Assembly (NCBI GenBank): GCA_947034885.2
Contig: OX344749.2
Span: 7,455,501-7,519,500 of the forward strand
Origin: Thuidium tamariscinum
Taxonomy: Eukaryota > Streptophyta > Bryopsida > Hypnales > Thuidiaceae
Length of the DNA stretch: 64,000 nucleotides
Direction of reading: 5' to 3'
Shown piece by piece: positions 1 through 35,697 of the stretch (the stretch's first letter is position 1; each line of letters opens with the position of its first letter). Position numbers and translations under genes: made by a program. The notes under the pieces were generated by a model. That model did not search any database. It worked only from the letters and a program-made list of their open reading frames with translations, and was not told the DNA's origin.

Positions 1-1610
1 TGGGTCGCCTGGACGAGCTCGTGAACGTGTGGGTGAAGCAGGTGAGCCGCAACAAGGGCCTGAACGACGAGGTGGTGCGCGAGGCGCGGTGCAAGATCTT
101 CACGTTCGGTTCGTACCGTCTGGGCGTGCACGGTCCGGGCGCGGACATCGACACGCTGTGCGTGGGTCCGCGTTACGTGACGCGCGAGGAGGACTTCTTC
201 GTGGAGCTGCACGAGCTTTTGTCTCGGACGGACGGCGTGACGGAGCTGCACACGGTGCCGGACGCGCATGTGCCCGTGATGAGCTTCGAGTTTAGCGGCA
301 TCCCGATCGACCTTTTGTACGCGCGTCTGCCTGTGTGGGTGGTTCCGGAGGAGCTTGACATTTTGCAGGACAGCATTTTGCAGAATGTGGACGAGCAGAG
401 CGTGCGGAGCCTGAATGGTTGCCGCGTGACGGACCGCATATTGCGTCTGGTGCCGAACATGGAGCACTTCCGGACCACGCTGAGGTACGTGAAGCTGTGG
501 GCCAAGAGGCGCGGGGTTTATTCCAATGTGATCGGTTTTCTGGGAGGTGTTAACTGGGCTTTGCTTGTGGCTCGCATTTGCCAATTATACCCTAACGCAG
601 TTCCGAGCGTGCTGTTGTCGAGGTTCTTCCGTGTTTACAAGCAGTGGCGGTGGCCTAACCCCGTGATGCTGTGTGAGATCGAGGAGGGTTCGCTGGGTCT
701 TCCCGTTTGGGATCCTCGGAAGAACCCCCGCGACCGGTCGCACCTGATGCCGATCATCACGCCGACGTACCCTTGCCAGAACTCGAGCTTCAACGTGTCC
801 TGCAGCACGCTGCGCGTGATGACGGAGGAGTTCAAGCGCGGTGACGGCGTGTGCGACTCTTTGGACGCGAAGGCCGCGGACTGGTCGAAGCTGTTCGCGG
901 CGTTCCCATTTTTCGAGAGCTACAAGAACTATTTGCAGATCGACATCTGGGCGGGCGACGAGGAGGAGATGCGCATCTGGAAGGGTTGGGTGGAGTCTCG
1001 TCTGCGTCAGCTGATTTTGAAGGTGGAGAAGGACACGCAGGGTTTGCTGCAGTGCCACCCGCACCCGAACGGTTTCCACGACGCGAGCAAGAAGTCTCCG
1101 GTTTGCTCCTTTTTCGTGGCGCTGCAGCGCAAGCAGGGCACGCAGACGCCTTCTGCGCCGTTCGACATGGTGCACACGATCGCGGAGTTCAAGCATTCCG
1201 TGTTCCTGTACATGCTTTGGAAGCCTAGCATGCGCCTGCACGTTTCGCACGTGAAGCCGAAGCAGATTCCGGCATACGTGTTTCCCGACGGCGTCCGTCC
1301 GGTGCGGGCTCCGCGCGCGGCGAGCTTGGGCGGTCGGGTTCGTTCGGGTTCGGGTCCGGTTCCGGGTTCCGGAGCAGGGTTGGTTCCCGTTGCGGTCTTG
1401 GAGAGCGTGCCGGCGGTGGACTCCCCTGAGGCGAGCGCGAGGGCTGCCGTTGTCGGTACGCCCCCGAGCGAGGTGAAGGTTTCCGCCGCGAGCGAGGAGG
1501 CTGAGCTTTCTGTGCCCGAGGCGAGCAAGCGCGCCGCCGAGAACGTGCTTCTGGGTCCCGGTCCTGTTTCTTTGAAAAGGGTAAGGGTGGAGCTTCGTTC
1601 GGAGAGTTGA
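1..1610 (+). CDS. PAPS: Poly(A) polymerase, left copy (5' end cut by window edge)
   Basis: Canonical nuclear poly(A) polymerase, which adds the poly(A) tail to cleaved pre-mRNA. The reading frame enters from the window edge: positions 3-5 are codon 57 by comparison with the complete copy at 34088-35863, and the stop is TGA at 1608-1610. The visible part has the nucleotidyltransferase signature FGSYRLG followed by ADIDTLCVGP (two metal-binding Asp) and the third Asp in GIPIDLLYARL. The conserved central and RNA-binding domain follows, for example GFLGGVNWALLVARICQLYP and YPCQNSSFNVS. The last ~120 residues are a low-complexity Gly/Pro/Ala/Ser/Glu tail ending KRVRVELRSES. There is no intron. 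The translation is identical to the right-hand copy over the whole shared length. The gene lies on the left arm of the large inverted repeat and points inwards. The family call is firm; whether this copy is transcribed cannot be seen. Confidence 0.95.
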   Translation, partial: GRLDELVNVWVKQVSRNKGLNDEVVREARCKIFTFGSYRLGVHGPGADIDTLCVGPRYVTREEDFFVELHELLSRTDGVTELHTVPDAHVPVMSFEFSGIPIDLLYARLPVWVVPEELDILQDSILQNVDEQSVRSLNGCRVTDRILRLVPNMEHFRTTLRYVKLWAKRRGVYSNVIGFLGGVNWALLVARICQLYPNAVPSVLLSRFFRVYKQWRWPNPVMLCEIEEGSLGLPVWDPRKNPRDRSHLMPIITPTYPCQNSSFNVSCSTLRVMTEEFKRGDGVCDSLDAKAADWSKLFAAFPFFESYKNYLQIDIWAGDEEEMRIWKGWVESRLRQLILKVEKDTQGLLQCHPHPNGFHDASKKSPVCSFFVALQRKQGTQTPSAPFDMVHTIAEFKHSVFLYMLWKPSMRLHVSHVKPKQIPAYVFPDGVRPVRAPRAASLGGRVRSGSGPVPGSGAGLVPVAVLESVPAVDSPEASARAAVVGTPPSEVKVSAASEEAELSVPEASKRAAENVLLGPGPVSLKRVRVELRSES

Positions 1611-2316
1611 GGTGGCGTTTGGGATTTGTATTGTAATTTGGAGGCGTTCGACCCTGTGATTCCCCCGCCCGGAGGAGAGGCCCCAGGAGAGGAGAGGAGG
1701 GGAGATGCACGAGGACTACATTCCATGTGATTCTGTGAATAGAGCGCATTGCGTTAGCGGCCTTTATTGGAGGGAATGGGGAGGGTCGCGGGTGGGGCGA
1801 TCCCGGCGGGTGGGGTGTCGGATGCGCTACAGCATTGCCGATGATAGGGTAGGGTAGGGTAGGATGTTTCTGCCGGGACATTGTGTGATATGGTAATCCT
1901 TCGGCGCAGCTCTGTTTTCTGTCGGAAGCGGTAGTCGGAGAGCGCTGGTTTTTTTTCTTTTTTTTCTTGGAACAGTTTTTAGGTTTCCCATATCACCCCA
2001 TGTCCCGGGAGAGCTGGTTTAAAAGGAACTACGGTGCCGACACGGCTGGGAAGACCGGAGCCCGAGAGCGCTGCCGTTCCCTCCTGTGCATTTCAGGTGA
2101 GCCGAGCGCCAGGAGTGTTGGTGGTGGTCAGGGCCGGCACCAGAAAATACAAAAAGAGTAGGGCGAAAGGAGAGTGCGAGTGTCTTAGTCTTTTTACAGT
2201 ACATTAGGTTTCGTGTATGATAATTTTTTTTTTGGGAAGTGTGTTCTTTGTGATCCTGACCAGATGTTTGTCGACTGACTGTGCATTGCTGGGTTCGTCC
2301 AGCGCCTCTTAATTTT

Positions 2317-2322
2317 AATAAA
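2317..2322 (+). promoter_or_regulatory. Putative poly(A) signal of left PAP copy
   Basis: A canonical AATAAA lies about 700 bp after the stop codon, just before a GT/T-rich stretch (2340-2420). That arrangement fits a plant cleavage and polyadenylation site. It is also present at the mirror position in the other arm. Inferred from motif and position only. Confidence 0.4.
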
Positions 2323-3889
2323 GTTCCACGTATATTCACCTGATGTTGTGTTTGTTTGCTTTGAGGCTTTGTTGTTTCTGTTGTGTCATTTTGAGTTTGA
2401 AGTGTATTTTTTGGACTTTGTTTTCGATTGTAGCTTCCCCTGTCTTCGGTTTTTGTTGAGTGTTCAGAAAGCATTGTTTGTCGCTTTTTACAGGTGAGTA
2501 TTTTTTGTGTTGTTGTGCACTGTTCGATGTCTGCTTTGTGTGATAGGCTGTGAAGTGTTGCGTTTTTGTTGCGTGACAAATGCATGGTTTCTGCATTGCA
2601 TTGCATTTGTGGTATTGGCTTGTGTTTCTTACTTTCATGGGGCTGCGTGGGGCTGCGTCTGTTTGTGCGTTCCTGGTCATCGCTTGTTATGTTTTGTGTG
2701 TATCTGTTCTTGGATAGTATTGTGCAGTATTCGGCCGATTTTGAGCTTTTGGAGTTTTTATTTCTGAAAGTTGATCTGTTTTGTTTCAAAAAGGAAAAGA
2801 AAAGAAGTTGAGTGTTGTATTCGAATGCCTCATGCCGAAAGGGACTCTGACCTACCCGGAAACGACGGGGCAATGATTGTGTTGAAAGTCTTAAGAGTCT
2901 GCACCTTGTAAGTCCTATCTTTGCACTGACTGTATAAGTCAGAGCATTTCATTTTTGAGGATATTTCTTTTAGTAGAAGTCAACTTACAGAGTTTTCGCC
3001 TTTTTTACCTTTTTTCCGTGGAATTTGATATTATTGGGAGTACCTGAAGTTAGAGAAAGTGAGGAAACTTTGAATCGAAAATTTTCCTGAAGAGATTTGA
3101 AATTCTGAGCACAGGTGTACATTATAGTTATGGAAATTTAAGTGTAATTGTAAACCAGCGGATGTTGTGTTTACTAATTACAGTTGTGCTTACAGACATT
3201 ATATTTGAAACTACAATATGACTAGATTTGAATTTAATGGCTTTAGACTTTCGAGTTGAGTGGGATTTAGACTTGGTTATTTCATTTTGTTAGTCGGTTA
3301 ACCTGTACAAGTCCTGTTATCTCTATTATAGACCTGTAGGGATGAAATGGATTTTGGATTGGCTCCTTCATTCTCAATTGTGGTTGTGAATTTTTAGAGC
3401 TTCACTTTAAGATAGAAATTCACATTAGGTCTTTGGAAATGTAATTTTAATTGAATCGATGCCATGCAGCAAAAGCTATGTCATCCTGGGAACAAAATGA
3501 ACGTGGAATGCCAGCTCCTACAGTTTTATCCTTGCTTTATATTTGATCAAAAATGCCATTTCCAATGCCAAGAGCAAAGAAATTAAAAATAGTACTTTAT
3601 TTTGGCATATCTAGTCCTAGGAACTTGTAGTTGAGATTAATGCATTCAAAAGCCAATGAATAAATAATGTTTTTGGCATGATAGCAAACTAGTTTATAAC
3701 ACTTTGAATCCTCTTAGAATTTTCTTATCATGAAGATTGAGTTTGAGCTTATAGGAAAATTAAAAGTTTAAAAAATAACATGATTTTCATTTTTCACCTC
3801 TAAAGGACCACAACTTTCTTTATCTAGAAAAACACTTAAGACTACCATTTCTATATCAAAGAGTAAAATAATTTTTGAACTCTTTTTTA

Positions 3890-4700
3890 CATATCTAACA
3901 AGAGAATCTTACAACTAACTAGTATGAGAGTCTGGAAAAAAAATTAGAAATTTGGATAGCATAGATTGCAACATCTCTGCATTTAAAGTGAAAAAATTAA
4001 GTTTTTCAAAACATTGTGCAATTGGATTATTTGATTTTGAACCTTCTTAACTATATTTTTCTGCACTATAGATTTTTTATCTTTAAATATTGTGATGTAT
4101 AGTTGAGTTGAGAGTCTAGGAAAAAAAAATACAAAAAAACTTAATTTTTATTCTTTAAAAAATTGTTGAATAGAAGTAGGTACAAGATAGAAGGAAAATC
4201 TAAATTATTAATATCTCTAAGATGGAATTAAAATTCACTAATTCTAATGGTGAGATTTTCTAGGAAAAAAAATAGACCATGTGGAATTTTTTTTTTAAAT
4301 TGTAAAAGTTGCATTCAAAATTGAATCCTACAAGTTATTTTTTCTAGAAGATGATCTAATTGCCCAAAAAACAAGATTGTCTATAACTTTCTCATAACAA
4401 TTCCAAATGTATTGAATCAAAGCTTTTTATGTAGAAAAAATAATAATTTGTAAGAATTTTTTTTTAATTCGTAAAATTCAAATTTATATATTTTTTTGTT
4501 GCCCAGTTTTCCATGTTTTGAGCTTATTTGGGCATAACTTTTGTTCTTGGGCCCCAATTGAAAAAAAAATTATATTCCTATCAAGGTAATCAATTTTTCT
4601 ATCTTCAAAAAAAAGTTTCATTCCTCCCATTTTTTTCATTTGAGATGTGCAATCAAAATAAAGGATTATTATAATTACCTTGGTTAAATTTTAGACATGG
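3890..4700 (+). repeat. Dispersed repeat A, copy 1
   Basis: Roughly 0.8 kb that recurs inverted at about 56250-57110. Shared landmarks in order are TTGAACCTTCTTAA / rc of GAAGGTTCAA, GTTGAGAGTCTAG / rc CTAGACTCTCAAC, AATCCTACAAGTTATTTT / rc of AATAACTTGTAGGATTAA, and GAGCTTATTTGGGCATAA / rc of TTATGCCCAAATAAG. No ORF and no clear termini were found, so the element class is unknown. The copies are well diverged, implying an old insertion. Confidence 0.65.
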
Positions 4701-5299
4701 CTTGAAAGTAAATTAGCATCATTATAATAGATTTAGGATCTGAATATATATTTAAAGGTAGAAAAAAAATAAAGATTTTTTTTTTTGAATTTATACAATT
4801 ATAGCCTTACCATGAAAAAATGAAATTTTTTTAGATATACTTCTATTATGTGGTAAATGGTGTATTTATTGAATAAATTTGTAAATAGCATCTCAGGTGG
4901 AATCCAATGTTTGTTGTATCTAAATATGATAATTGGTATATAAAAATAATCAGTAATTATGATGAAGTCATTAGAGGATGAAGAATGAAATAAAGTGGGT
5001 GATGGCACATGCCTTAGACTTAAATACTTGCACTTCTAGATTTTGATATTTGCCAAGTCTTAGAGTTGCTTAACCAATGCTCCCTTGTTGTAAATTTGAA
5101 TATGAACTTAGAATGTTTTGAATATGCAAATGGGCTTAGGATTTTTCTTTTTTCAAAAGCAAGCTCATGCTTTAGGAATTGAGACTACGAAGAAAATTTG
5201 GTATGTATAATTGCATAGAGTATTTTGAATTTAGGTTTAATCCCTAAAGCCCTAAATTGTGTTTTTTTGGCAACATAGCGATTTCAAGCAGTTCATTAT

Positions 5300-6100
5300 A
5301 AATGGAGTTTTCATTTTTTTCTTTGAAATTTTCACACAACATATGCCCACGGAATAGCTTTATGTCCCAACAATTTTCATAACTTTTGACTATATAATTA
5401 AAAAGTTATAGCATGATATGTTGTTTTCTTTATTCAACAAGCAGTCTGGACAGCTAAAAAAACTTTTTTATTAAATGTTTTTTTAAAGAAATAAAAACTT
5501 GAAATTGGTTTATTATATTTACATAGATGTGTAAAGATTTGAATCATTCCATTTTGATTAATAAGTCAAAAGTTATGAGGAGTTTTAGTTTGGTGTACTT
5601 TACAAGTGTTATATAATCTCTACTCTACAAAAAAGTTTGAAGTCCTTTGTTTAATTCAATTTTTAATATTTTTATAAAAAAATTAAAACATTGGGTGAAG
5701 ATTTTTTATTAAAATATTACAACCATTGGAATTGGCATTTTTCATTTCCATAGATAAATTGTTCACAATTTAGTATTTTGAATCATTTTCTACGTCTTTC
5801 TACTTACTATTTTTTTCTTATATGTTGTACAATTCCAATTGATTTGAAATTTTTTGAGCATGTAGCCAACTTGCAGTGAAGGATGAATTCAAAGAGGAAC
5901 CACCATTTTGATTTTTTTTCCATACAAATATGACCTTGTAAAGGAGCTGCCTGGATTTTCGCAGGGACAAGAAAAGGATTTTTGTCAATTCAAATGCTAA
6001 TATTTGCAATCTACACAGTGAAAATTTCTGAAGGTTTTTCCTCATACTTTCAAACCACCTTACTTCAAGATCCTATGGTTTCATGTGTCAAAATTTTTTT
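5300..6100 (+). repeat. Dispersed repeat B, copy 1
   Basis: About 0.8 kb that recurs inverted at about 25800-26700. Landmarks are GAAATTTTCACACAA / rc TTGCGTGAAAATTTC, TTTTCATAACTTTT / rc AAAAGTTATGAAAA, the poly-T block ending near 5930 followed by a CATACAAATATGA-like segment, and a TTTGAATTG-like segment near 5990. Peptide-like frames occur in both copies but are not conserved, so this is most likely a non-coding transposon relic. Confidence 0.6.
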
Positions 6101-7239
6101 TTCTAAAATTTTGTACTTGTATTAGAAATTGCAGTTTTAGAGCGTTTTTGGTGATTAAAACTAGTTTGTATTTGAAACCAATTACAATTTGAAAATACTT
6201 AGTTTTTGAATCTACTTTTGGTTTCAAAATACTTTATCTTTTCAACTAGGTGCTTGAATTGCCCACTTCTTATTTTGTATATCATTTTCAATATGTACAC
6301 TTTTAAAAGATCAATTTACCTTTGACCCTCCCTCCCGAAAGTCTTTTAAAAAAAGTTTTTCTCTATTTATAATGAATATAAGGTACATGAAACAAGAATT
6401 TAGAAATTTATATCATTATATCCCTATAAGAATTTGTTTTGCTCATATCCAACGAAATCCAAATTTCAAAAAGTTTCACAAAAAATTTAACTCATGGGAA
6501 CCTACACAAAATCTATTTTGCTCTATGACAAGACAATGATTGGTATTATAAAGGTTGATCTTAAACATGCTTCTACTTAAGAATTTGTTAAAGAGTGAAA
6601 ATCAAGTGAGTGTATTTTGAATTTTTTCACCATGCTATCAACTCAATTCTTGTAATATAATTTGTTCAAGTAAACTTTGTTTTATAAGACCATTACTAGT
6701 GACACTACATTATTAGAAATATGTTTTGGTGTAATGATCAAGCATTTTTCAAAGTCAATTGAGCTTTTTGCTTTGCTAGAGAAGTGGCAAGAGGAAAGTA
6801 CTTGATTCATTTTTGGATCAAGTATTGAGTTGTTTTAGAGGTTTATTTGAGGTGTCAAAAGACCATGGGCATATTTTTCTTGGTGAGCTTTAAGTCTTGT
6901 ATGAGTAAGAGGTGATTCAAGATCATTGCACCACATTTTAGGATCACCTAATGTAGATGAATAGGTAGAAATCAAAGGTGCAGACCATTAAGAAGGGATT
7001 TCAGTAAACTAGTTTGAAAAAGGGGCATTATGAAGATTGAGATTTGTAGGTGCTATGGATATCCATGGACTATTGGTTCAATGAACAAGCACCTTTGATT
7101 TCTTTTTCACCTTATTACCTCATATATGAATGGTATCCTATTTTATTGATGGCCATGAAATAAGAGGTTGACACCATGGTAGTTAATATTGATGATCTGA
7201 GTACAAGGGCACATACACACGAGACGTTAAACTTGTCCT

Positions 7240-7480
7240 ACAAAGTGGGACTAGTCGGTTGGATTTATCCCAGGGGTAAACGTTGAATTTTTTTATTTTT
7301 TTTACAAATTTTTTTTTACAAATTTTAAATTCATATTTATAATTAAAGACCCCAAATTAGTTTTTTTGGAGGGGTCTAGAACATATCCAAAAACATAGCA
7401 CAAAAATAGTTTTTTTTAACTTTTATCCTTAGGTAATATGAGTTTTATCTTGCTGGCCCCACTTTGTGGGACGGATTTAA
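7240..7480 (-). repeat. SINE-like repeat, copy 1 (candidate)
   Basis: Similar in reverse complement to 42590-42905. Shared blocks are the GGATTTATC...AGGGG segment, a long A/T block, then AGACCCCAAATTA...GGGGTCTAGAACATATCC and a GGCCCCAC segment. Read on the minus strand it begins with a B-box-like TTAAATCC and a downstream GGGGCCAGCA block. A tRNA-derived SINE is possible but the A box is not convincing here. Confidence 0.35.
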
Positions 7481-7619
7481 TGTCCTGCCCACATAAATAA
7501 ACATATGAGACATTATTTGTCACACATCAATGGTTAAATTGATGCTCGTTGATCTCATACTTCAACTAGGCTATAATATATAACAAGTATTGAGTAAGCA
7601 ACACCATATTTAGAAGTTG

Positions 7620-7900
7620 ACAATGAGATCATCCAACTTTGAAAGTTACACAAGAACTGAAGTGAAATACATTCTATGCCATGACTTACTACCTTGCAAA
7701 TTCAAATTTACATTCAATTTCAAGTTTCATCTATAATATTGGAATCTTTTGCAATTTGTCTAGTGACCTGCAAGAGAAGATTGAAAAAAAAAATATGACT
7801 TTATTTGACTGTTTTCTGTGCCTTCATTGTTTGGATTCAATGAACAAGGAGTATCACCATTTAGTTACAACCTGGGCAATTAATTCTGAGAATTTCTAAA
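7620..7900 (+). pseudogene. Possible Copia-type gag remnant
   Basis: A 72-codon frame (7681-7899) contains LQEKIEKKNMTLFDCFLCLH followed by a YHHLVTTW segment. This resembles the UBN2 / gag-polypeptide pattern of Ty1/Copia retrotransposons (an 'E/D-KIxDED...L-x-SLP-x-SYEHLVTT' layout). The typical SLP motif is not intact, and no protease, integrase or reverse transcriptase was found nearby. I offer this as a decayed fragment with low certainty; chance similarity in an AT-rich frame is the alternative. Confidence 0.3.
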
Positions 7901-8460
7901 TGAGATAGAAAAGTTTAGGATGAGGTTTCGAATGAAAAAATATATTTTTGGAAATTGGGTAGGAAAATGAAATGTCGACTTTTTGACCAATTTTTCTTGG
8001 TGTATGTTGGAAAATTAACAATTTAAAATCCTTTTTCCCAGTGGATAGCCGACTAGACACATGTTTTCTAGAATTTTTTTAATTTCTATGTGTATAGTAT
8101 TTTATTGTACCAATTATTCTTCATAATTTCATTTACTAGCTTTTACGATTTTGTTTATTAACTACATTTACCAAGAGTAAATTAAGTATTTGTAAGGTGC
8201 CTTAATTTTGAAGCTATGATGGTTTGGATAGACACCTACTCCTTCTTCCTTATTGGACTTTTTTTATTTTACAGAAATGAAGTAGAATGATATTGCAAAA
8301 TGAAAAGTATTGCTTATTGGATTTTTGAATTATGTGAAGTAAGTCTAGTGCATAAAGGGCAATAGTGGGATGACACTATTAATGAATAGAGTGAAATCAA
8401 GCTTGTCATTGGTAGAAAATTAACTAACTTGATTATGGTGAGTGATCCTTTATAACTTTG

Positions 8461-9060
8461 TTAACCCTTAACTCCTAAATGCCCAAGGAGTTTTTTGAGT
8501 TTCTACAAGTTTGCTCTAAATTGAACAAAAAGTCAACATTTCAGTAATTTTTTTTCAAATTTTAATAACACTTATAGATTGAAGGTTATAACGTTTGATC
8601 ATGAGGGTGTTCAAATTGCAAAAGTGATTTGAAGTCTTCCAATCTTCTTTTGACATGTCAAATTTGAAAAGTTGATCACCAAAATAATATGAGCTTAAAG
8701 AGCCTAATATGGATAATCCCAATCAATTTGTAGCTTCTCAAAATCTACACCACATATTTTAAAATTGAATTTCAGTGTGATTTTTTCTCGAAGAACTAGT
8801 ATATTTGAGGTTCATTTCCAAGTGCCTTCAAGACTAGAGAAAATCAAGATTGCAATGAATATCCTTGCACAAATTCTTAAATCGAAATTTTTTGTTGATC
8901 ATTTTAAAAATCTTATTTTTGATGCTAAAACTAGACTTCAAAAAGAACTTTTCAAAAATATTTACTACAAAAAATAGCAACTTGAGAGAAACAAATTTTT
9001 TTTGAACCAACTTGATTCACAAAGTTAAGAAAATTTTGTGAATAAAAATTGACAATGGCA
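8461..9060 (+). repeat. TTAACCC-family element, copy 1 (3' end unclear)
   Basis: The copy starts TTAACCCTTAACTCCTAAATG and is similar in reverse complement to 30046-30698 (TTTGCTCTAAATTGAAC and GATTGCAATGAATATCC are shared landmarks) and to 61660-62027 in the same direction. Other family members are flanked on both sides by TTAA with CCC-starting terminal inverted repeats, which is piggyBac-like. Here the right end is not clear, so this may be a truncated copy. Confidence 0.55.
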
Positions 9061-10481
9061 ACAATGCTATTGGGAGGAAAATGAAGCTATTGGAAATGGA
9101 CTGGGAATTTTTCTACCTTTTGGCACACTTCTGGACAAATTTCAAAAAATCGAGGTAGGTCAAAATATGTAGGAAATCCATTGGTTGGCATACGGAACTT
9201 TCCAAATTGTGTTTGGATTAATTGAAAAATTTAATCCAAAGGAATTCAATTAGTCTAGGTCTCTAGGATGGTAAGTTGTATCCTATTGGTATTAAATAAG
9301 TTGACTTTTATGAGGCAAAAGGAGGATCGTATTATCAGAACATGAAAATTAAACTTGAACTTTGAAAAACATCTATTATGAATTCAAATATTGAATATAT
9401 TTTGGTAAATTGGTATCTTATGAAAATTAGAAATAAGATTGAAACCAAATAATCACTTAATTAAAAAATCCATTTAGGAATGAAAACTTAGGGTCTAGGA
9501 TTTAGGGTTTTAGGAGAACCCTAAAACCTAAACCCTAAACCCATAAATGGAAACTTGAGTCGTGGTGTCATCAAAATATGACATTCTGATATTTCTATTA
9601 TTTTTAGAGAGCATCATTTGGGTGAATAAGGTCTTCTCATGCATTTCAAAATCTTGAAGGCAAGGTTTTGAAGGACCATCATGGAAATGCAACAATTCTC
9701 ATACCAATTGCCGGAGTCATAGTGCAAGATTTCTAACATGCGTGCAAACTTCTCAATCTAGATTGTTTTTACCAACAAATTTTGGGGGGGGCAAAATTTC
9801 ACACCAAAGCAATACTCTAAAAATGGTTCCAAAAATAGTATAGGAAATTCAATGAAAAAATATGAGAGAATTGCTAAATACTACAAGTCTAGTGCATTCA
9901 TATCTCTTATCAACAAAGACAAAAGGGGTCACATTGCCCAGGTAAGTGATGGGTAAATTAACACCAATGCCACCAAGTGATAATTACAAAGGTTTCAGTC
10001 ATGAAGAGCCACGCCATAGTTTAGGATTTTGCCTTTCTACCTTCTTTTAAAACCAATTGCCTCACTTTCGAATCCTACCTTATTTTTAGCCTTATTTTTT
10101 GAAGGATTGTTCCTTTGGTGATACCAAAAGAGGGCATGATCGTTCCTACAACCCCAAGTATAGTGCAGTAGCTCTCTTGTATTCTTGGTTCAATTCAATT
10201 CTGAACTCCAACACTCTACTACTTAGAAGAAGTTTTATTTCAAAATTGCTTTAAATAGTTCAATATTGTTGTACACTTATTGCCCTACAAAGTAGTAGCT
10301 AGCGAGTGTTTTAACTTTTATTGTTCTTTAATCCTCACAATACTCCTTTTCTTTAGTAGCTTGAGACTGTTGAGACTTGAGAGTGATGGAGGTGCAATGA
10401 GAGTGCACTAGGCAAAAACAAAGTGAAAGAGTGGTGGAAGTCCTTATTTTTGAAAGTAGCTCTATTGATCTCAAAAACCGC
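9061..10481. other. Gene-free spacer
   Basis: AT-rich sequence without a recognisable gene. The only structured item is the telomere-like palindrome at 9488-9542. Confidence 0.5.
9488..9542. repeat. Telomere-like palindrome (TTTAGGG / CCCTAAA)
   Basis: Degenerate plant telomere units in opposite orientations face each other: a GGATTTAGGGTTTTAGG block, a 5-base loop, then CCTAAAACCTAAACCCTAAA. The head-to-head order could be a short interstitial telomeric repeat or a simple palindrome. It is too short to be a telomere. Confidence 0.6.
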
Positions 10482-17421: not shown

Positions 17422-17423
<2 letters not shown>

Positions 17424-17484: not shown

Positions 17485-17486
<2 letters not shown>

Positions 17487-18930: not shown

Positions 18931-18971
18931 AAGAGGGGTAGATACTAGGAAAATCTTTGAATGTTGTGGGC

Positions 18972-20374: not shown

Positions 20375-22438
20375 TTAAAAAAAAAGGCAGGTATCGAAAG
20401 AGGTTGAAAGTTTAGTGAGGGACAGATCCTGCTCACCCCGTCCAAAGCCATTTGTTGTGAGGCTGCTCAGACGCCCATGGGCCCTTAATGAAAACTGTGA
20501 CCAGTGAGGACCCCCTGGGCTGGTGTTCAGAGAACTGAATCTGGGCAAATAAGAGCCGCGTCGTGGCCGCAGTGTTCTAAAAAGATAGCGGGTAACCACA
20601 ACGAGAATGAAAAACAACAAGAGAAGCAGTGAGATTGAGACAAAATTTCGAGTGGTGGTGAAATCTGCTAGTGACGCCTTCCCCGATTCAGCTTGAACCG
20701 GGATTAGAGCACCAGCTTCCCACAAGGCAGCCCCTAGAGTCCACGCAAAGTCGCCTGAGCCAATTTTTACTTGATCATCACGAAGGTGCAAGCCTTGTCG
20801 AAGCAAGGCAGCAACATAAGGGGCTCGAAAGCAGTACTGGTCAATACTGGGCTGAGCAACCACTTTCGCTTGCGCATCTTTCCACTTCAGCTCACAGAAC
20901 TTCTGTCCCTTCTTCAGCAGCTTGCCAAGAGGGGCATCACCTTTTAGTCCAAAGAATTTATACACAACAAAAAATCCCGCAAGTCCATAAAATTTACCCT
21001 CGGGAGATGGTTGGTATTTCCCAAGAGAACATTTAGACGGAGAAGAACACGTCTCCGTGAGTGAGACATTGACGACCTCTTCCACAAGCGCCTGACAAGC
21101 CTTCCAATTCGAAGATCCTATCAACTCCACCTGAGCAACTCGGGCTCCCAAGCTATCGCTTTGACTTCCAAATGCCAGAGGTGGCAGCATACAATGTGTG
21201 GAGCACACAAAGGGCTTTCTGTAGTCTTTATGGAGACACGGGTGCTGTACTTCGACCAGTCCATTTGTGGTTACCACAACTCCCTTGGACCAAGGAGTTT
21301 GAGGCCGCAGCAGCTGTGACACAGACTTCTCAAATGCGTCGTTCAAGCCAAACCCAGCATGGGAAACTGCATAGAGATGGTGATCTACAGTTCCAACACT
21401 TACATTCACACCGAACTGTTGCGCAACATCTTCAGGCTCAAATGTTACTTGCAATGACGAACCTCCAAGATCCAAGGTCCCTATATTTGGTAGTTTTGGC
21501 GTGTGACCTAGTAGACCAAGATTGTAGTTGAGAGCTATCCAGCCGTAGTAAGCTTCCTCTACTCCAGTCAAGACTTTCACCCACTTCCGTTTGCACGAAA
21601 AAGGGGATTTTCCCAGCACCAAGAATGCGCTGTCGAGAATTGACTCACTCTGGGTACGTGGCAACCTTCGCAGCCCAGCAGTAGCCAAGAGAAATAGCCG
21701 CGTAGATCCACGTGCATAAGGTGGTATCTGATTCTCTGCCCAGCCCAGAAGAGGCTGAAGAGCGTGCTGTACAGCTGTCTCATTATTCAACATTTTGTCT
21801 AATCCAGGTTCCGTCTCCACGCGTTTATACGCCCGCTGCTGCCCTGGAACTCTATACCAAGGCGCACTGTCATCACGACTGTAGGTCGGTTTCACCATCA
21901 CAGGAAGAGAGTCCTTTGGTGAATGAGCCCATGCGTACACGTGAACCCGGGTACCCGTACTACCTCCATCAATCACTACTGCATACTGAAGTGCCTCTGT
22001 TTTCCAATACGACTTTCCCAACAGAAACCCTAGGTAAAGTAACAGTATTGCCAGTATGAGAAATCCAATGGCTGCTTTCCATCGATCCCACAAGTGAGGA
22101 TTGGATGGCAAACTCCCAGGGGCCGCATTCCCGCCATTGCTGAGCTTGCTATACTTGGGCACTCGTGGAGGAAAGCCTTCTCTAATCAGCTGCAATAGGG
22201 GGAGCTTGGGTGGATTTGGCACATTGCTCGCTCCATCAGGAAAACGTTCAGCAGAGGGATCGAACTTCGCATATGTTGAAAATACAGGAACGGAATATGA
22301 GCTTCGCAGGCTCGCAGCATCTCGCCCATATTGCCCAGGGGATGCGCTCGAGAAATTTACTGGCAAGGGACACCTTGGGGGCTGTGAGAAGGATGATGCT
22401 GGTGGAACGCTGCCACTATTCCTACTTCCTATGGCCAT
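20375..22438 (-). CDS. APY7: Apyrase (GDA1/CD39 nucleoside phosphatase), APY7-like
   Basis: Single-exon gene of 687 aa. GDA1/CD39 enzymes hydrolyse NTPs and NDPs to NMP plus phosphate, usually in the Golgi/ER lumen or outside the cell. All five apyrase conserved regions are visible: VVIDGGSTGTRVHVYAW (154-170), LLATAGLRRLP (250-260), VLTGVEEAYYGWIALNYNLG (289-308), GTLDLGGSSLQVTF (320-333) and IGSGDFAWTLGAALWEAG (559-576). A hydrophobic anchor lies at 121-141 after a ~120-residue Ser/Pro-rich N-terminus, and a second at about 598-618 precedes a basic cytosolic tail. Two membrane anchors and the long C-terminal extension match the plant APY7 class rather than APY1/2, which have one anchor and are about 470 aa. 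The start is the first ATG of the long frame. Intact and probably functional. Confidence 0.93.
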   Translation of the reverse strand: MAIGSRNSGSVPPASSFSQPPRCPLPVNFSSASPGQYGRDAASLRSSYSVPVFSTYAKFDPSAERFPDGASNVPNPPKLPLLQLIREGFPPRVPKYSKLSNGGNAAPGSLPSNPHLWDRWKAAIGFLILAILLLYLGFLLGKSYWKTEALQYAVVIDGGSTGTRVHVYAWAHSPKDSLPVMVKPTYSRDDSAPWYRVPGQQRAYKRVETEPGLDKMLNNETAVQHALQPLLGWAENQIPPYARGSTRLFLLATAGLRRLPRTQSESILDSAFLVLGKSPFSCKRKWVKVLTGVEEAYYGWIALNYNLGLLGHTPKLPNIGTLDLGGSSLQVTFEPEDVAQQFGVNVSVGTVDHHLYAVSHAGFGLNDAFEKSVSQLLRPQTPWSKGVVVTTNGLVEVQHPCLHKDYRKPFVCSTHCMLPPLAFGSQSDSLGARVAQVELIGSSNWKACQALVEEVVNVSLTETCSSPSKCSLGKYQPSPEGKFYGLAGFFVVYKFFGLKGDAPLGKLLKKGQKFCELKWKDAQAKVVAQPSIDQYCFRAPYVAALLRQGLHLRDDQVKIGSGDFAWTLGAALWEAGALIPVQAESGKASLADFTTTRNFVSISLLLLLFFILVVVTRYLFRTLRPRRGSYLPRFSSLNTSPGGPHWSQFSLRAHGRLSSLTTNGFGRGEQDLSLTKLSTSFDTCLFF

Positions 22439-24950: not shown

Positions 24951-27524
24951 GTTGGAATAAAAATAGTGAAAGTTGAAATTAGAATAGAATTTTAATAAGT
25001 TGGAGGTAAGTATTGAATTCTATTTGTTTTTCTTGAATTAGAGATTTGGAGTACAAGATACACTACTGAATGCAAGTTGGGTAGACAAATCATTGAATTT
25101 TGATCAGAATCGTATCATTCATTCATAATATTACTTAAAAATAGTATTCTTCATTCAAACATTGGTGAATTTGATGTTTCTTAAAGGTTCTTTCTTTTTA
25201 GGTTTTTTGGTAGTATAAAAAGAACTATCCCACATTACAAAAATAATAGTTAGATTTTGGCAATAATTTTCTATAATTCTACTATCTATAGACAAGGTTT
25301 CTGTCAGATTATAAGATAAAAAGGTTTTAAATGGCATTTCAAGGTCAAGAGTAAATAAACGTGATTGGTATTTTGGCTTTGTAGATGATTGCATGTCTAA
25401 AAGAGTATACTATATGAAATATTTGTCGGTATAGTCCATTCGAGCTTCTATTACATGGGAGCTATGTAGATAAAAAAAATTGGATTTCTTAAGGGCTATA
25501 TTTACCTAAATTTCAAAATTTTGACTATTTTGTATACCATATACTTTGTTTAAAAAAAATTGTTGTTGTTTTCAAATACCCTATGTTCGTTACAAATACA
25601 TAAAAGCAACAAATATTTTTATAAACTTAATGGAGTCGCAATGAAATTCATCATTGAAAATTGCACATTTAAAAAATGATGTACAAAACAAGATGAGTGA
25701 AGTTTAGAATCTCATTGCAAAGATTAAGTGCTTGCAAATATAAAATACATTGAAGCACTAAATACTTCCAAATTGAAAGTGGTTCCAAGAAAAAACTAAT
25801 TTAACCACAAAGTATTTAACCCTCTAAAGTTCTCTGACTATATTTTAACCAAAAATGCTTCAAAAATGCTTTAAAATTGCCACTTCTTGTACAAGTATCA
25901 AACTTTTGAAAAATAATATTTTTGACACATGCAATTGTAAGATGTTTTAGTACACTAGTTTGAAAAGATGTGAATTTTTTTTTTGAGATTTCTACCACAT
26001 GTACTACAAGATATTAGTGTTTGAATTGAGCAAAATCCTATTTTTGATCCTACAAAAAAATAGGCAATTACACTTTACAAGCTCACATTTGTATGAAATA
26101 ATGTCTATGTTGTTGATGCTTCTTTGGATTCATTTTTCATGGCAAATTGCCTATATGCTTGATGATTTTAAATCATTTGGAATCCTACAGCATATAGGAA
26201 AAAATTAGTAAATAGAAAGAAATAGTGAATGATTTAAATTATTAAATTGTAAAGAATTTATTTTTGGAACTGAAAAATGCCAAACCCAATTGTTGTAATA
26301 TTGTAATTAAGAATTTGCATCCAACAATTTATTTATTTTTGAAAACTTAAAATTGAATTGAATAAAGAACTTCAAAGTTTATTTATATTTTCAAAGTATT
26401 GATTCTATAATTGTTTACAAACAAAAAATCCTCATAACTTTTGACTCATTAATCAAAATGGAATGATTTAAAACTTTCCACATGTATATAAATCTAGAAA
26501 ATCAATTTCAAATTTTTGTTTCTATATAAGAAGTGATTTTTTCAAATTTGCTTAGACTATCTGGATTGAGAAAGAAACAACAAATCATGCAATAATCTTA
26601 TAACCACATAATGAAAAGTTATGAAAATTATTGGATCTTAGAGATATTCTTTGTCTTCATATTGCGTGAAAATTTCAAAGAAAAATAATAAAATCTCTAG
26701 TCCTATGTACCTACCCAAAATTTCTATATTGTCAAAAAATGTAGCTTGGTCCTTTAGAGGTTAAAACACTAAACACATGAAGATAAGTACAATGTTCAAA
26801 AGTAAATAGAAATAAATAGAGATAAGAATTTAGGGTGGAGATGCATTGTGCAACAAGGAATGCATGTGTTCCAAAACACACACCAAAGCATTTACAATAA
26901 TGACAAAAACTAAATGTTGCAGAGTTAAACAAGCATCTTTGAATAGAAATGCCTTATAAATAATAGAATGCATATAAGGTAACTCATCCTATGACAAGTA
27001 CAACTCTAAACAAGTCTAATGTAGTCTCATCTTATAGGTTGAGTTACCTTATGTCTTATAAAACTCAACACAAAGCATTTGTAAAATACTTCAAAAACTA
27101 AAGGTTGTAAATATATCAAAGAATTTCGATTCAAGGATCAAAAAATGCAAAAAGAAAATTTAACTAAGACATAGAACTTTAAGGCTACAAATCCAATAGG
27201 GTTAATAGAAACCAACAACCTTATACATGCTTCATTTTTTTGTTCATCTTGAAGGCTCCATTAATACAATAGTCATCTAGCACACATTGCATCCACCCTT
27301 GGATACTTCTCTCGCAATTTTGTTACTTCTAATACTACAAATAAGGATTTAGATTTTTTTTTCTTAGCAAGGCTATTGTAGAGTTAATGAAAAAATAAAT
27401 TTCATTATTATACCCCACCTTCACTATGTATAAATACCCTAAACACATTATGATGATGCAAAATTATTTCCAAGTCATGTCTAAAATTAAGGATCGAGAT
27501 AACTATGATAATCCTTCATTTGAT
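24951..27524. other. Gene-free AT-rich spacer
   Basis: No recognisable gene; open frames are short. Contains dispersed repeat B copy 2 (25800-26700). Confidence 0.55.
25800..26700 (-). repeat. Dispersed repeat B, copy 2
   Basis: Reverse-complement partner of 5300-6100, with landmarks given there. Diverged by substitutions and small indels; no termini or coding sequence recognised. Confidence 0.6.
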
Positions 27525-28928
27525 TGTATAGTGGGGTACCAATCAAAATGTCGTTTTTAAATTTGCAGTGAGAAAATTTTTAGTATTGCCAACTTTGAAA
27601 GCCTCTCGAGAGCTCAAAAATTAGTATTTTATCATGAAATTTTTACCATAGCATTATATTTAATTTAATTATATGTATGACAAATTTCAAGTCCAAAAGA
27701 CTCACCAAAAAAAAGTTATTCAAAATCTACCAACATGGATAGTGGTGAGAAACATTTCACTACTTTCAACTTTGACACCTTCCTAAGGATTGAGTTTTTT
27801 TTCTTTTGCCATGAAATTTTTGTCATGAAACAATCTCTATGTTTTTAATATGCATAAAAAATTTCAAGGTAAAATAATTTTTTTTAAAGAAGATATTTGA
27901 AATCTCTGAACAGATGTAGTTTTGAGAACATTTTCACAATTGCCAACTTTGACACCCTCCCAAGGGCTGAAAAATTGGTTTCTTACCATGAATTTTTTTT
28001 TGTGGAGTCATCTCTATGTTGATGATATGTTCTTCAAATTTCAAGTTCAAATGAATTACCAAAAAAAAGATATATAAAATCTCCCAACATATCTAGTTGT
28101 GAGGAGGAGTTTTTGAGCCCTTAGTATAGTGTTATTTTGTGGAGCAAAGTTTGACACGAATGTAAAAACTCAACCTCACAATTACACATGTTGAGAGATT
28201 TTGAATATCTTTTTTTGGGTAAGTCTTTTGAACTTGAAATTTAAAACATGTATTATCAACATACAGTTAATCTTATTCAAAAAAATTCATTTTAAATAGA
28301 TAAATTTTTAGCCCTTGGGAGGGTGTCAAAGTTGGCAATAGTGAAACTTTTCTCACAATTACATGTTGGGAGATTTTGTATATCTTTTTTTTGGTAGTTC
28401 ATTTGAACTTGAAATTTGAAGAACATATCATCAACATAGAGATGACTCCACAAAAAAAAATTCATGGTAAGAAACCAATTTTTCAGCCCTTGGGAGGGTG
28501 TCAAAGTTGGCAATTGTGAAAATGTTCTCAAAACTACATCTGTTCAGAGATTTCAAATATCTTCTTTAAAAAAAATTATTTTACCTTGAAATTTTTTATG
28601 CATATTAAAAACATAGAGATTGTTTCATGACAAAAATTTCATGGCAAAAGAAAAAAAACTCAATCCTTAGGAAGGTGTCAAAGTTGAAAGTAGTGAAATG
28701 TTTCTCACCACTACCCATGTTAGTAGATTTTGAATAACTTTTTTTTGGTGAGTCTTTTGGACTTGAAATTTGTCATACATATAATTAAATTAAAGATGAT
28801 GCTATGGTAAGAATTTCGTGATAAAATACTAATTTTTGAGCTCTCGGGAAGCTTTCAAAGTTGACAATACTAAAAAATTTCTCACTGCAAATTTAAAAAC
28901 GACATTTTGATTGGTACCCCACTGTACA
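27525..28928. repeat. 1.4-kb inverted repeat built of ~177-bp units
   Basis: Left end TGTATAGTGGGGTACC mirrors right end GGTACCCCACTGTACA. Between them the landmark CAACTTTGACACC (or its complement GGTGTCAAAGTTG) recurs near 27590, 27768 and 27945 in one direction and near 28325, 28498, 28675 and 28853 in the other, at 173-178-bp spacing. The structure is thus a tandem array of about 3-4 units that has been inverted on itself, centred near 28130-28300. No ORF. A transcript would fold into a long hairpin. Confidence 0.85.
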
Positions 28929-30045
28929 TGAACAAAGTAAAATGGGAGTGCTTTCTCCAAGTTGTATATTGGAAGAGCATTGAAGATAGCCTTATTTACA
29001 ACATTGATGCAATGTTGACCAAACTCATTTGAAAATTCCTTTTTCATCCAACTTTAAGTTACATGGTATGTCTTTCCTTTGATCTTCTATAAGTAAGTTC
29101 ATTCAATAATCAATGAAGTACATGATACCACTTTTAATAATTTGAACCTCAAATTCTATTTTATAATCAACTTGAATATTAAAAGTATAGCATAAGATTT
29201 ATGGAAATTTCTAGTAGGTTTGAGATCATAGAGCATCTTGATTGTTGAGTATTTAGGTTACACAAATGGTCACTATGTATATATAATCTAAAAGAGCATC
29301 ATATAGCCTAGAGGTGCAATTGAATAGTTGAATTTTAGTAAATTCTCACATAACTTGTTGGCTTTGGAAGTGAAGTGCCATTTATAAATGCTAGTAGTAG
29401 AACAATAGCAATGTGCATAAGGGGTAGCCAATTATTGTAAGGACTTCTAGTGATTAAAGAGTGTTCATAACATTTTATGATAGAAGATATTTTAAATCAA
29501 AAACAAAATTTTAATTTGGAAGTCACAAAAATTGATAAAGATTAATTGGATATCAACTAAATACACTATTAGGAAGCTCTCCAAACCTCATTTTGTTGCC
29601 TTTAAAATCCAATATAGGAATTACCAAAGATTCAAAGTAAAATTTAAATTTCTTGTTTGCCTCAATCTTGTATACTATTCACAATTTGAAGTACTTTCTT
29701 TCTATATTAGCTTTATAATGTGGACTTGCTAAATGCAAGTGATGATTGAAGTTTTATGTAGATTGTTGTTTTCTATAATTTTGAATGGAATACTCCTATC
29801 CATCATAACGTAAATAGGGATTGAAATAGATTGTCAAGGTCATAGTTGATGTCTACTACATATACTTGCTCATGACCTAGGTCAAATTTCATTGACTTGC
29901 AATGTTTCAATTCACTATATTAATTTTTGTTAGGCTCTTTGAAACAAGGGTCACAAAACATGCTATATTAGCGATAATGGAGACTTGCATATCAACCAAC
30001 TACATTAAATGCTAAAAGATCTATCTTTTGAAGCAATGTTTGATT
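28929..30045. other. Gene-free AT-rich spacer
   Basis: Nothing recognised beyond short AT-driven frames. Confidence 0.5.
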
Positions 30046-30698
30046 TTAACCTCTAAATGCTTGAGTCACCAAAATTTGGTGTTAGCAAAACTTTGAAGTT
30101 AAATAAAACCTAACCAAGTTGCCATTTTTAGTAGTTTATATTTTTGAAAGCTTCTTCTTGAAGTTTAATTTTAGTATTAGAAATTTGATTTGGAAAATGA
30201 ATGATATTCATTTTTCAATTCAAGATTTTGTGCAAGGATACCCATTGCAATCTTGACTTTCTATAGTATTGAGAGCTCTTGAAAATGAGCCTCAAATGCA
30301 CTAGATCTTGGAGAAAAAATCACATTCAAAATTCATTTATGAAAATTGTAGAATAGATTTTGAGAAGCCATAAATTGATTGGAGTTATGCATGTTAGGCC
30401 CTTTTACCTCATACTTTTTTGGTCACCAAATTTACACTTTGACTTGTGAAAAGATGATAGAAAGACTTTACATCACTTTTGCACTTTTAACACTTCCATA
30501 GTTAAACAATATAATCTTTCACTTTGTAAGTCATATTGTTGTATTTTCTTTTCCTATGTGATCTAGTTATATCTAGTTTGAATTTGTATGGTTACAATTC
30601 CAAATAAATTGGTACAACTTATCAAAATGTTGGCATTTTGTTCAATTTAGAGCAAATTCCAAGAAGCTCAAAACAAGCCTTAGGCATTTAGGGGTTAA
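30046..30698 (-). mobile_element. TTAA-flanked, piggyBac-like non-autonomous element, copy 2
   Basis: A 653-bp element runs from TTAACCTCTAAATGCTTGAG to its inverted end CCTTAGGCATTTAGGGGTTAA. TTAA stands at both borders, and the inverted ends after TTAA read CC(T/C)CTAAATGC. TTAA duplication with CCC/CCY-starting ends is the hallmark of piggyBac elements. Related copies are at 8461, 54986, 61142 and 61660. No transposase frame. Confidence 0.6.
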
Positions 30699-31659
30699 TT
30701 ACAAGGTAACATTATTTGGCTAAACAATAGAGAAATGCATCCTTTCGTAACCAACATTGCATTCACTAATACAACTCCCCCATAGACTAAAATGGTTTTG
30801 TGTTAAATTTATATTAAAGCTAATACAAATTGGGTGAAAAATATGATAGAATAGTAATTCAAATCATTTCAACCTACAATGGATTTGTATTAGTGATTGG
30901 CTAGAATTGCAAAAGAATTACAATGATAAATATGCAAGTATTAAAGAATTTGTAAGTATAAAGAGCTTAGAACATCTCTACTCCAATGTCTTAGGCCATG
31001 CCATTAGGCTTGCAACATGTTGCACTTACAATTGTTAGGGGAAACCAAAATTTGCAATGCTAGACATTTAGATCCATTGTGATTGTAAGAGTGGACCAAC
31101 AATCCAAAATAGTCAACTTCCACCTTGCTACAATTGACTAGGATAGAGTCCCATTGACTTCAACTTCACTTGGTGGCACTATTGTATATTTCCACCATCT
31201 AGTGTGCAAGTGATTATTTGTTCATTGCAAAAGGTTGAGGCATTTTCAAAGAAACTTATATCTAGAGGATTCACAAAACATGATAACTTAGTGATGAAGA
31301 TGATGGCTAGAATAGTGCAAATGTCCAATATGTACGTCAAGGTAGTACTATAAGAGGTACACAAAATAGTAAAATCAAATCGCTTTAACATAAAGGTTGT
31401 CATACATAAAAAAAAGTCACTTTATAAGCCACTTAAATCAATAAATAATTTTAAAAAATATGCATGGAGGTTCATGATTCTTAATTACAAAAATATCTCA
31501 TTCAAAATGAGAGCATTCTAGTACAATAACCACCATATTTCTACAATATCAAATATCGATCAAGAAACTAATGTAGGGCAAGCTAACTTCACTATTTTGT
31601 AGAGCAACTCCTTAGTACGTAGTATGGTGTAGCTTTTGCTTCAATTTTATCAAATATTT
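30699..31659. other. Gene-free AT-rich spacer
   Basis: No gene or clear element recognised between the TTAA-flanked element and the inner edge of the right inverted-repeat arm. Confidence 0.45.
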
Positions 31660-34600
31660 GTGAAGAGAATCAAGAGATGTAGCTTTTGCTTCAAGGAATG
31701 GATTAAAATAAAATCACATTTCTAAAGACCTCATGTGACTAAATATTTTAAGATGAGGTTTTAAAAATTCACAACCACAATTCAACATGTAGAGTCATCC
31801 AAAATCCATTTTGTCTGACTTATATAGGTTAACCGAATTACCAACTAACAAAATGAAAATAACTAAATCTAAATTCCACTCTACTCAAAATTCTAAAGCC
31901 ATTGAAAATCACATTTTGACGTATCATAATTTCTACTAGAATGTTTATGAGCACATTAGTAAGTATTGAATACAATATCCCAATTTACAATTACAATTGT
32001 GTACCTTGCCTTTTGAGTGGATAGTAAGGGATCACTTCCACCCAAAAGATAGAGCCAAAAAAAAGGAAATATTTTTATTATCCCTTAGAACACCCCTGGA
32101 TTTAATCAATTAATTAATTAAAATTAATTACCCCCTAAGGCTCCCCTTCCACCCCTCTTTATAATTTCAGAAACCAATTCATAAGACAATCAATATGGGA
32201 TATTGATTGTACCCCATATACCCTTTCATATCAATATGTATATTCGTATTTGTATTCCCTCCAATATCCATATCCATATCTGCTTTTATATTTGTCTTCA
32301 ATTATATATTGTATCTATACAATATTCATACCATATCTTTACTCTACAATATGTCTACAATATCCATACTTGGTATCATATACATATCATATACATACAA
32401 TATGAGTATTCATATTCTAAATTTGTATTTGAATGGGGGAGCATTCTTTTCAATTTGAAATCAATGGCTTATGATTGGGGGAGGGGTGGGAATTGGCCAG
32501 GAATGGCAGCATCTTTTCAGGGGACAGGTACACTTCAATGTTATAAAACCACAATGCATGCCTGCGCTCAGATTTTCAAATTTCTTCAAGCAAAATTTCG
32601 ATACTAAGTTTCCTCACTTTCTCTAACTTCAGGTTCTCACAATAATATAAACATTCAGAGAAAAAACCAAACGTAAAATCTCTGTAAGTTGACTTCTACG
32701 AAAAGAAACATCCTCAAAAATGAAATGCTCTCACTTATACAGTCAGTGCAAAGATAGGACTCCCACGGTGCAGACTCTAAGACTTTCAACACAATCATTG
32801 CCCCGTCGTTTCCGGGTAGGTCAGAGTCCCTTTCGGCATGAGGCATCCGAAAGCAGATATGACTTCGGATACAACACCCACGCACCCAGCAGCCTTCAGA
32901 AATAAAATCTCCAAAAGCTCAAACTCAGCTCAATGCCGACATGCCTGACAACCAAGGCAACAACATGAAATTCCACAATACTATCCAAATACAGATACAC
33001 ACAAAGCACACAAGACACAAAAAAACGAGGACCACGGACACAAAAACAAACGCAGCCCCATGAAAGTAAGAAACACAAGCCAATACCACAAATGCAATGC
33101 AATGCAGAAACCATGCATTTGTCACGCAACAAAAACGCAACACTTCACAGCCTATCACACAAAGCAGACATCGAACAGTGCACAACAACACAAAAAATAC
33201 TCACCTGTAAAAAGCGACAAACAATGCTTTCTGAACACTCAACAAAAACCGAAGACAGGGGAAGCTACAATCGAAAACAAAGTCCAAAAAATACACTTCA
33301 AACTCAAAATGACACAACAGAAACAACAAAGCCTCAAAGCAAACAAACACAACATCAGGTGAATATACGTGGAACTTTATTAAAATTAAGAGGCGCTGGA
33401 CGAACCCAGCAATGCACAGTCAGTCGACAAACATCTGGTCAGGATCACAAAGAACACACTTCCCAAAAAAAAAATTATCATACACGAAACCTAATGTACT
33501 GTAAAAAGACTAAGACACTCGCACTCTCCTTTCGCCCTACTCTTTTTGTATTTTCTGGTGCCGGCCCTGACCACCACCAACACTCCTGGCGCTCGGCTCA
33601 CCTGAAATGCACAGGAGGGAACGGCAGCGCTCTCGGGCTCCGGTCTTCCCAGCCGTGTCGGCACCGTAGTTCCTTTTAAACCAGCTCTCCCGGGACATGG
33701 GGTGATATGGGAAACCTAAAAACTGTTCCAAGAAAAAAAAGAAAAAAAACCAGCGCTCTCCGACTACCGCTTCCGACAGAAAACAGAGCTGCGCCGAAGG
33801 ATTACCATATCACACAATGTCCCGGCAGAAACATCCTACCCTACCCTACCCTATCATCGGCAATGCTGTAGCGCATCCGACACCCCACCCGCCGGGATCG
33901 CCCCACCCGCGACCCTCCCCATTCCCTCCAATAAAGGCCGCTAACGCAATGCGCTCTATTCACAGAATCACATGGAATGTAGTCCTCGTGCATCTCCCCT
34001 CCTCTCCTCTCCTGGGGCCTCTCCTCCGGGCGGGGGAATCACAGGGTCGAACGCCTCCAAATTACAATACAAATCCCAAACGCCACCTCAACTCTCCGAA
34101 CGAAGCTCCACCCTTACCCTTTTCAAAGAAACAGGACCGGGACCCAGAAGCACGTTCTCGGCGGCGCGCTTGCTCGCCTCGGGCACAGAAAGCTCAGCCT
34201 CCTCGCTCGCGGCGGAAACCTTCACCTCGCTCGGGGGCGTACCGACAACGGCAGCCCTCGCGCTCGCCTCAGGGGAGTCCACCGCCGGCACGCTCTCCAA
34301 GACCGCAACGGGAACCAACCCTGCTCCGGAACCCGGAACCGGACCCGAACCCGAACGAACCCGACCGCCCAAGCTCGCCGCGCGCGGAGCCCGCACCGGA
34401 CGGACGCCGTCGGGAAACACGTATGCCGGAATCTGCTTCGGCTTCACGTGCGAAACGTGCAGGCGCATGCTAGGCTTCCAAAGCATGTACAGGAACACGG
34501 AATGCTTGAACTCCGCGATCGTGTGCACCATGTCGAACGGCGCAGAAGGCGTCTGCGTGCCCTGCTTGCGCTGCAGCGCCACGAAAAAGGAGCAAACCGG

Positions 34601-35697
34601 AGACTTCTTGCTCGCGTCGTGGAAACCGTTCGGGTGCGGGTGGCACTGCAGCAAACCCTGCGTGTCCTTCTCCACCTTCAAAATCAGCTGACGCAGACGA
34701 GACTCCACCCAACCCTTCCAGATGCGCATCTCCTCCTCGTCGCCCGCCCAGATGTCGATCTGCAAATAGTTCTTGTAGCTCTCGAAAAATGGGAACGCCG
34801 CGAACAGCTTCGACCAGTCCGCGGCCTTCGCGTCCAAAGAGTCGCACACGCCGTCACCGCGCTTGAACTCCTCCGTCATCACGCGCAGCGTGCTGCAGGA
34901 CACGTTGAAGCTCGAGTTCTGGCAAGGGTACGTCGGCGTGATGATCGGCATCAGGTGCGACCGGTCGCGGGGGTTCTTCCGAGGATCCCAAACGGGAAGA
35001 CCCAGCGAACCCTCCTCGATCTCACACAGCATCACGGGGTTAGGCCACCGCCACTGCTTGTAAACACGGAAGAACCTCGACAACAGCACGCTCGGAACTG
35101 CGTTAGGGTATAATTGGCAAATGCGAGCCACAAGCAAAGCCCAGTTAACACCTCCCAGAAAACCGATCACATTGGAATAAACCCCGCGCCTCTTGGCCCA
35201 CAGCTTCACGTACCTCAGCGTGGTCCGGAAGTGCTCCATGTTCGGCACCAGACGCAATATGCGGTCCGTCACGCGGCAACCATTCAGGCTCCGCACGCTC
35301 TGCTCGTCCACATTCTGCAAAATGCTGTCCTGCAAAATGTCAAGCTCCTCCGGAACCACCCACACAGGCAGACGCGCGTACAAAAGGTCGATCGGGATGC
35401 CGCTAAACTCGAAGCTCATCACGGGCACATGCGCGTCCGGCACCGTGTGCAGCTCCGTCACGCCGTCCGTCCGAGACAAAAGCTCGTGCAGCTCCACGAA
35501 GAAGTCCTCCTCGCGCGTCACGTAACGCGGACCCACGCACAGCGTGTCGATGTCCGCGCCCGGACCGTGCACGCCCAGACGGTACGAACCGAACGTGAAG
35601 ATCTTGCACCGCGCCTCGCGCACCACCTCGTCGTTCAGGCCCTTGTTGCGGCTCACCTGCTTCACCCACACGTTCACGAGCTCGTCCAGGCGACCCA
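31660..35697. repeat. Right arm of large inverted duplication
   Basis: Reverse complement of 1-3480. It matches base for base, where compared, from 35697 down to about 33058, then diverges. Relative to the left arm it carries about 0.5 kb of extra DNA at about 32005-32530. Similarity resumes at about 31660-32000. The mirror poly(A) signal is at 33376-33381. The arm may extend further right than 35697, but its partner would lie outside the window. Confidence 0.93.
33376..33381 (-). promoter_or_regulatory. Putative poly(A) signal of right PAP copy
   Basis: TTTATT on the plus strand, i.e. AATAAA in the gene direction, about 700 bp after the PAP stop. Exact mirror of the left-arm motif. Confidence 0.4.

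Follow-up and report, generated by a model that had tools for sequence, protein, structure and literature searches.

What keeps two inverted copies of one gene identical to the last base when the DNA directly beside them has diverged? The locus that raises this question lies in a 64,000-nucleotide stretch of the moss Thuidium tamariscinum (assembly GCA_947034885.2, 363 Mb in 19 contigs) at C1:7455501-7519500, where C1 is contig OX344749.2; this whole stretch is the window, and window position x is C1:7455500+x. Two inward-facing poly(A) polymerase genes lie here on the arms of an inverted duplication, which measures at least about 3.9 kb, with 28.2 kb between the arms; the positions of the coding regions and the mirror alignment bear out what an earlier note on this DNA had described as an inverted pair some 28 kb apart. 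The left arm overruns the window edge, and a further 30 kb on the left and 20 kb on the right were fetched, giving 114 kb with zero N, in which positions left of the window carry negative numbers. The best reading of the pair is interlocus gene conversion between older inverted paralogues, to which we assign a probability of about 0.83.

The coding region of each copy is a single open frame without introns that encodes 591 amino acids. On the left (+ strand) it starts with an ATG at -165 (C1:7455335) and ends with a stop at 1608-1610, thus occupying 1-1610 of the window, on the right (- strand) it occupies 34088-35863, and the two proteins are identical. The identity extends beyond the protein: the left tract, from -199 to 2648 (C1:7455301-7458148, + strand), matches its mirror on the right, 33050-35897 (C1:7488550-7491397, - strand), at 2848 of 2848 columns and with zero gaps. 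Within the window 1-2648 is the reverse complement of 33050-35697 with 0 differences, as had been claimed up to about 2640, and the exact inner step falls at 2648/2649 (33050/33049). Besides the coding region the tract holds 34 bp before the ATG and 1038 bp after the stop, so that 1072 of its identical sites are non-coding; an AATAAA lies at 2317-2322, and the tract continues for about 330 bp beyond it.

At the inner edge identity drops in a step. The first diverged segment, 2649-3114 (+ strand), whose partner at 32561-33049 (- strand) was recovered by alignment and by genome search, differs at 55 of 430 aligned sites with 12 gap openings (about 87% identity of aligned columns), and the innermost alignable stretch, 3158-3478 (+ strand) against 31680-31984 (- strand), at 56 of 292 with 9 gap openings (about 81%), being partly dispersed repeat from about 3332 onward. 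Excluded from these counts were 3115-3157 on the left and 31985-32560 on the right, the latter holding a dispersed-repeat insertion found in the right arm only (about 31993-32530, + strand; 40 of 194 genome candidates scored, on ten contigs). Taken together, 111 of 722 aligned sites of the inner flank differ (15.4%). Outward from the inner edge the differences per 50 aligned columns run 10, 7, 10, 0, 3, 3, 12, 5, 10, 17 and onward, uneven and not graded, and these counts confirm the step-like drop that the earlier note had described. Its statement that the arms remain alignable beyond about 2645, with many indels, likewise stands (to 3478/31680), whereas its similarity of 65-80% was too low. 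At the step itself the left arm carries two units of a 10-bp tandem repeat and the right arm one.

A genome search with 2649-3480, in which 40 of 49 candidates were scored and very common words were skipped, gave 43 matches: up to about 3331 the sole match is the other arm, and from there to 3480 the matches are those of a dispersed repeat. Inside the diverged inner flank lies an identical island, 2825-2905 (+ strand), of 80 identical aligned columns with one 1-bp gap, a run reached by 1 of 20000 permutations. This island could be an older conversion patch or a conserved element; as regards a conserved RNA, there was no Rfam match in the window at the gathering score, and none in 1600-3700 at E values up to 1.

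On the outer side the tract passes into a shoulder, 35898-35990 (- strand), which over its 93 bp departs from the left copy (-292 to -200) at 3 sites, a rate distinct from that of the tract (3/93 against 0/2848, Fisher p = 3e-5). Beyond it the outer flank, 35991-36130 (- strand), pairs with the 168 bp from -460 to -293 and differs at 21 of 118 aligned sites with 10 gap openings, so that 82% of aligned columns are identical and 17.8% different. That this short segment is homologous follows from its local score of 91.5, to be compared with maxima of 43.5 in 1000 base shuffles and 37.5 among 600 GC-rich places taken from the rest of the 114 kb. Past its outer end at -460 there is a single 50-bp match (E value 0.004), which was left uncounted. 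Outer and inner flank are equally diverged within error (21/118 against 111/722, Fisher p = 0.50), as expected if both stem from one duplication. The flanks on both sides together have 31 gap openings, and 60 of their 132 differences are transitions; flank decay through cytosine deamination after a recent duplication was rejected on the grounds that this is no excess of transitions.

As can be seen, 0 differences in 2848 tract columns stand against 132 in 840 flank columns, the shoulder (3/93) being in neither count. The best three-segment fit places the edges at -199 and 2648 with a log-likelihood of -385, compared with -582 for a single rate, and at the flank rate all 1072 non-coding tract sites would come out identical with a probability of about 10^-80 if sites are independent. 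A duplication of uniform age, which had already been thought unlike these data, is thereby excluded. Selection on the protein is not the cause of the identity either, because 1072 of the identical sites are non-coding while neighbouring non-coding DNA is 16% different. What the tract does display is the mark by which conversion is recognised, high identity bounded on both sides by more diverged homology (0/2848 between 21/118 and 111/722), and the homologous, equally diverged flanks on either side support the proposal, made in the earlier note, that arm-to-arm gene conversion is the simplest explanation.

Such a history would begin with an inverted duplication that set two convergent intronless gene copies about 28 kb apart. 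The copies would then have diverged for long enough to leave flanks that are now about 16% different at aligned sites and carry many indels, after which homology-directed repair would have overwritten one copy with the other, producing a 2848-bp tract that takes in all of the coding region together with about 1 kb on its 3' side. The coding core may have stayed more alike than the flanks and hence kept recombining, and the copies may also be kept alike by selection acting on the dosage of an essential enzyme. The 3% shoulder and the 80-column island suggest more than one conversion event, though conserved elements would look alike. According to the parts of a review consulted (PMC3924818), interlocus conversion is thought to act mainly above 80% identity; the flanks are barely above this limit and the tract is 2.85 kb long, so it is easier to account for by several events combined than by one. 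In the moss lineage, strong homologous recombination has been brought forward to explain concerted evolution and the loss of introns, as far as the consulted sections of two papers go (PMC3045890, PMC3729371).

Several points weigh against gene conversion. All of the evidence comes from the assembly of one genome. The inner flank may have further matches in the genome, since very common words were skipped in the search, and flank divergence is uneven, ranging from 0 to 17 differences per 50 columns. Shoulder and island could be conserved elements instead of older tracts. A single event would be long, the tract exceeding the mean lengths estimated for four yeast data sets, between about 50 and several hundred bp, although the same portion of the review (PMC3924818) gives more than 1 kb for one other set. 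Finally, the age of the duplication presupposes neutral flanks: if the rate is taken to be 5e-9 to 1e-8 per site and year, it would be about 9-18 million years old, and the last homogenisation would be younger than about 53-105 thousand years (all tract sites) or 140-280 thousand years (non-coding sites only). Dating from the coding sequence would make the duplication seem more than 100 times too young.

Of the other explanations an assembly artefact survives best, though we consider it improbable. In this case the real copies would differ, or one would be damaged, and gap-filling, polishing or consensus building would have written one sequence into both arms. Such a fill-in would equally yield a perfect identity of 2848 bp, and another contig of the assembly, C9, has a length of exactly 24,900,000 bases, a round number. 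The lack of any N in the surrounding 114 kb speaks against it, as do the separate diverged flank around each copy and the 3 differences of the shoulder, which were kept apart. Self-comparison of the 114 kb moreover revealed no further near-identical pair above 1 kb; besides the tract, the one long match of near identity belongs to a palindromic element of 781 bp, of which the genome holds more copies. The earlier argument that the diverged inner arms rule against both copies being a single mis-assembled locus is sound, but it does not cover this narrower fill-in.

Very unlikely is a conversion mediated by cDNA (DNA copied from RNA), in which mRNA from one copy would have been reverse-transcribed and the product taken up by the other copy through recombination, homogenising the transcribed unit only. 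The tract does roughly equal a transcription unit, its single open frame is intronless, as in both Physcomitrella poly(A) polymerase genes in the consulted part of PMC2778134, and intron loss through recombination with cDNA is discussed for Physcomitrella in the consulted part of PMC3729371. On the other hand, the roughly 330 bp that the tract continues past AATAAA lie beyond the expected poly(A) site if that signal is used, and DNA-templated conversion requires no extra step. Least credible of all is that the 2.85-kb gene segment was recently copied to a new place without an older paralogue, with flank similarity due to chance or shared repeats: the tract ends are as sharp as those of a copied segment, but homologous, collinear flanks lie on either side of both copies, the inner flank beside the tract is matched by the other arm only among the candidates scored, and the outer-flank homology is far above shuffles.

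The product of the pair is, as predicted from its domains and residues, a canonical nuclear-type poly(A) polymerase. Pfam searches return PAP_NTPase, PAP_central and PAP_RNA-bind, the last covering positions 2-60 of the 181 in its profile only, and the match to poly(A) polymerase alpha 1q78, which we take to be the bovine enzyme, has an E value of 2.4e-140. Residues D104, D106 and D159, the three catalytic aspartates, align with aspartates of 1q78 and 1f5a, and by comparison with Arabidopsis PAPS1 the enzyme looks plant-like. With plant PAPS1-type genes the pair shares the enzyme family, and with the two Physcomitrella genes the intronless structure as well, whereas a common intron set is found in the Selaginella genes and, with two exceptions, in the angiosperm genes in the consulted part of PMC2778134.

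Whole-genome searches with the protein, with PF04928 and with PF20750 each returned the same three loci, namely the pair and a third gene at C9:15763939-15765632 (- strand); these were frame searches that ignore introns, and a gene split into short exons could escape them. The third gene, which weakly matches the 5' region of the pair, has an apparent intron of 221 bp; spliced there it gives an open frame of 530 codons with zero internal stops, the nine stops of the unspliced reading arising because the frame is read through the 221-bp stretch. Its protein is 68% identical to that of the pair (352 of 515 amino acids), too remote for an outgroup that could tell donor from recipient, with proportions of nonsynonymous and synonymous differences (pN/pS) of 0.19/0.50. 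In the alignment it has A opposite D104 and N opposite D159, so that two of the three catalytic aspartates are gone, and the product looks like a maintained protein without catalysis, possibly a conserved pseudo-enzyme, as judged from the predicted protein. Because this only other member found has lost two catalytic aspartates, the plant may, among the genes found, have no source of poly(A) polymerase but the pair. A fuller proposal, that the pair is the sole competent nuclear poly(A) polymerase beside a pseudo-enzyme on C9, and that its copies, as whole transcription units, overwrite one another time and again, recombination thereby keeping an essential enzyme as two interchangeable copies, is one we hold to be doubtful. 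The locus offers a clean natural example of a probable conversion tract in a moss, with both edges readable inside older flanks, and draws attention to a relative of an essential polymerase that may be a pseudo-enzyme.

Sex-chromosome palindromes have arms that are near-identical along their whole length and a short spacer; the present locus is not a large palindrome with whole-arm homogenisation, as 2.85 of about 3.9 kb are homogenised and the spacer measures 28.2 kb. Closer in kind are mammalian HSPA1A and HSPA1B, which are closely placed and nearly identical, and the Drosophila hsp70 genes, said to be the subject of Bettencourt and Feder 2002, going by its title. The present case differs from both in being a plant poly(A) polymerase with arms 28 kb apart, known from one genome. 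For Hsp70 genes, conversion is known to act on intronless paralogues in combination with purifying selection, according to the consulted part of PMC5865164, and concerted evolution by gene conversion has been suggested for near-identical Physcomitrella tandem genes, again in partial texts (PMC3045890 citing Lang et al. 2008; PMC3729371). Like those, the Thuidium genes are linked near-identical paralogues of a moss; unlike them, they are inverted relative to each other across a long spacer, and the edges of their tract can be placed within older flanking sequence. As to linkage or conversion of the Physcomitrella poly(A) polymerase pair, the consulted main text of PMC2778134 has 0 occurrences of "gene conversion" and 0 of "tandem". 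No published report of the Thuidium pair was found in a literature search that was not aimed at the named species and covered few subscription papers. This is a further case of a known phenomenon, with clear anatomy, and no new kind of system.

The spacer, 3479-31679 (no strand assigned), is repeat-rich and contains a GDA1/CD39 apyrase-like gene, identified by a domain match, as a single open frame of 687 codons at 20375-22438 (- strand). Candidates for a longer arm were sought within it. The mirror match between 5236-6398 and 25563-26765 was rejected as a very common repeat despite its right order, its unit of about 920 bp drawing 10,133 first-look candidates genome-wide, of which 40 were scored; 3828-4620, 8564-8984 and 30046-30417 were rejected since they also match outside the arms. 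An inverted match of 173 bp (173 columns, 72%) between 4650-4820 and 27357-27526 is in mirror order and could be an arm remnant or a repeat, and given this match the arms could be somewhat longer than stated.

Elsewhere in the window an acidic, serine-rich open frame of 706 codons at 51719-53839 has no Pfam match at E 0.001. The 781-bp palindromic element, at C1:7452690-7453470 about 2 kb left of the window, has identical 389-bp arms around a 3-bp centre. Compared with the 8 other full-length copies (9 compared in all), 11-15 sites per arm differ, against 0 between its own arms, and each of the other 8 has 0-3 differences from arm to arm; either its arms were homogenised or it belongs to a separate subfamily. 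The outer arms of an AT-rich foldback element at 27525-28928 match each other at about 97% across some 580 bp, and a 91% identical copy of it lies right of the window at C1:7522764-7524171.
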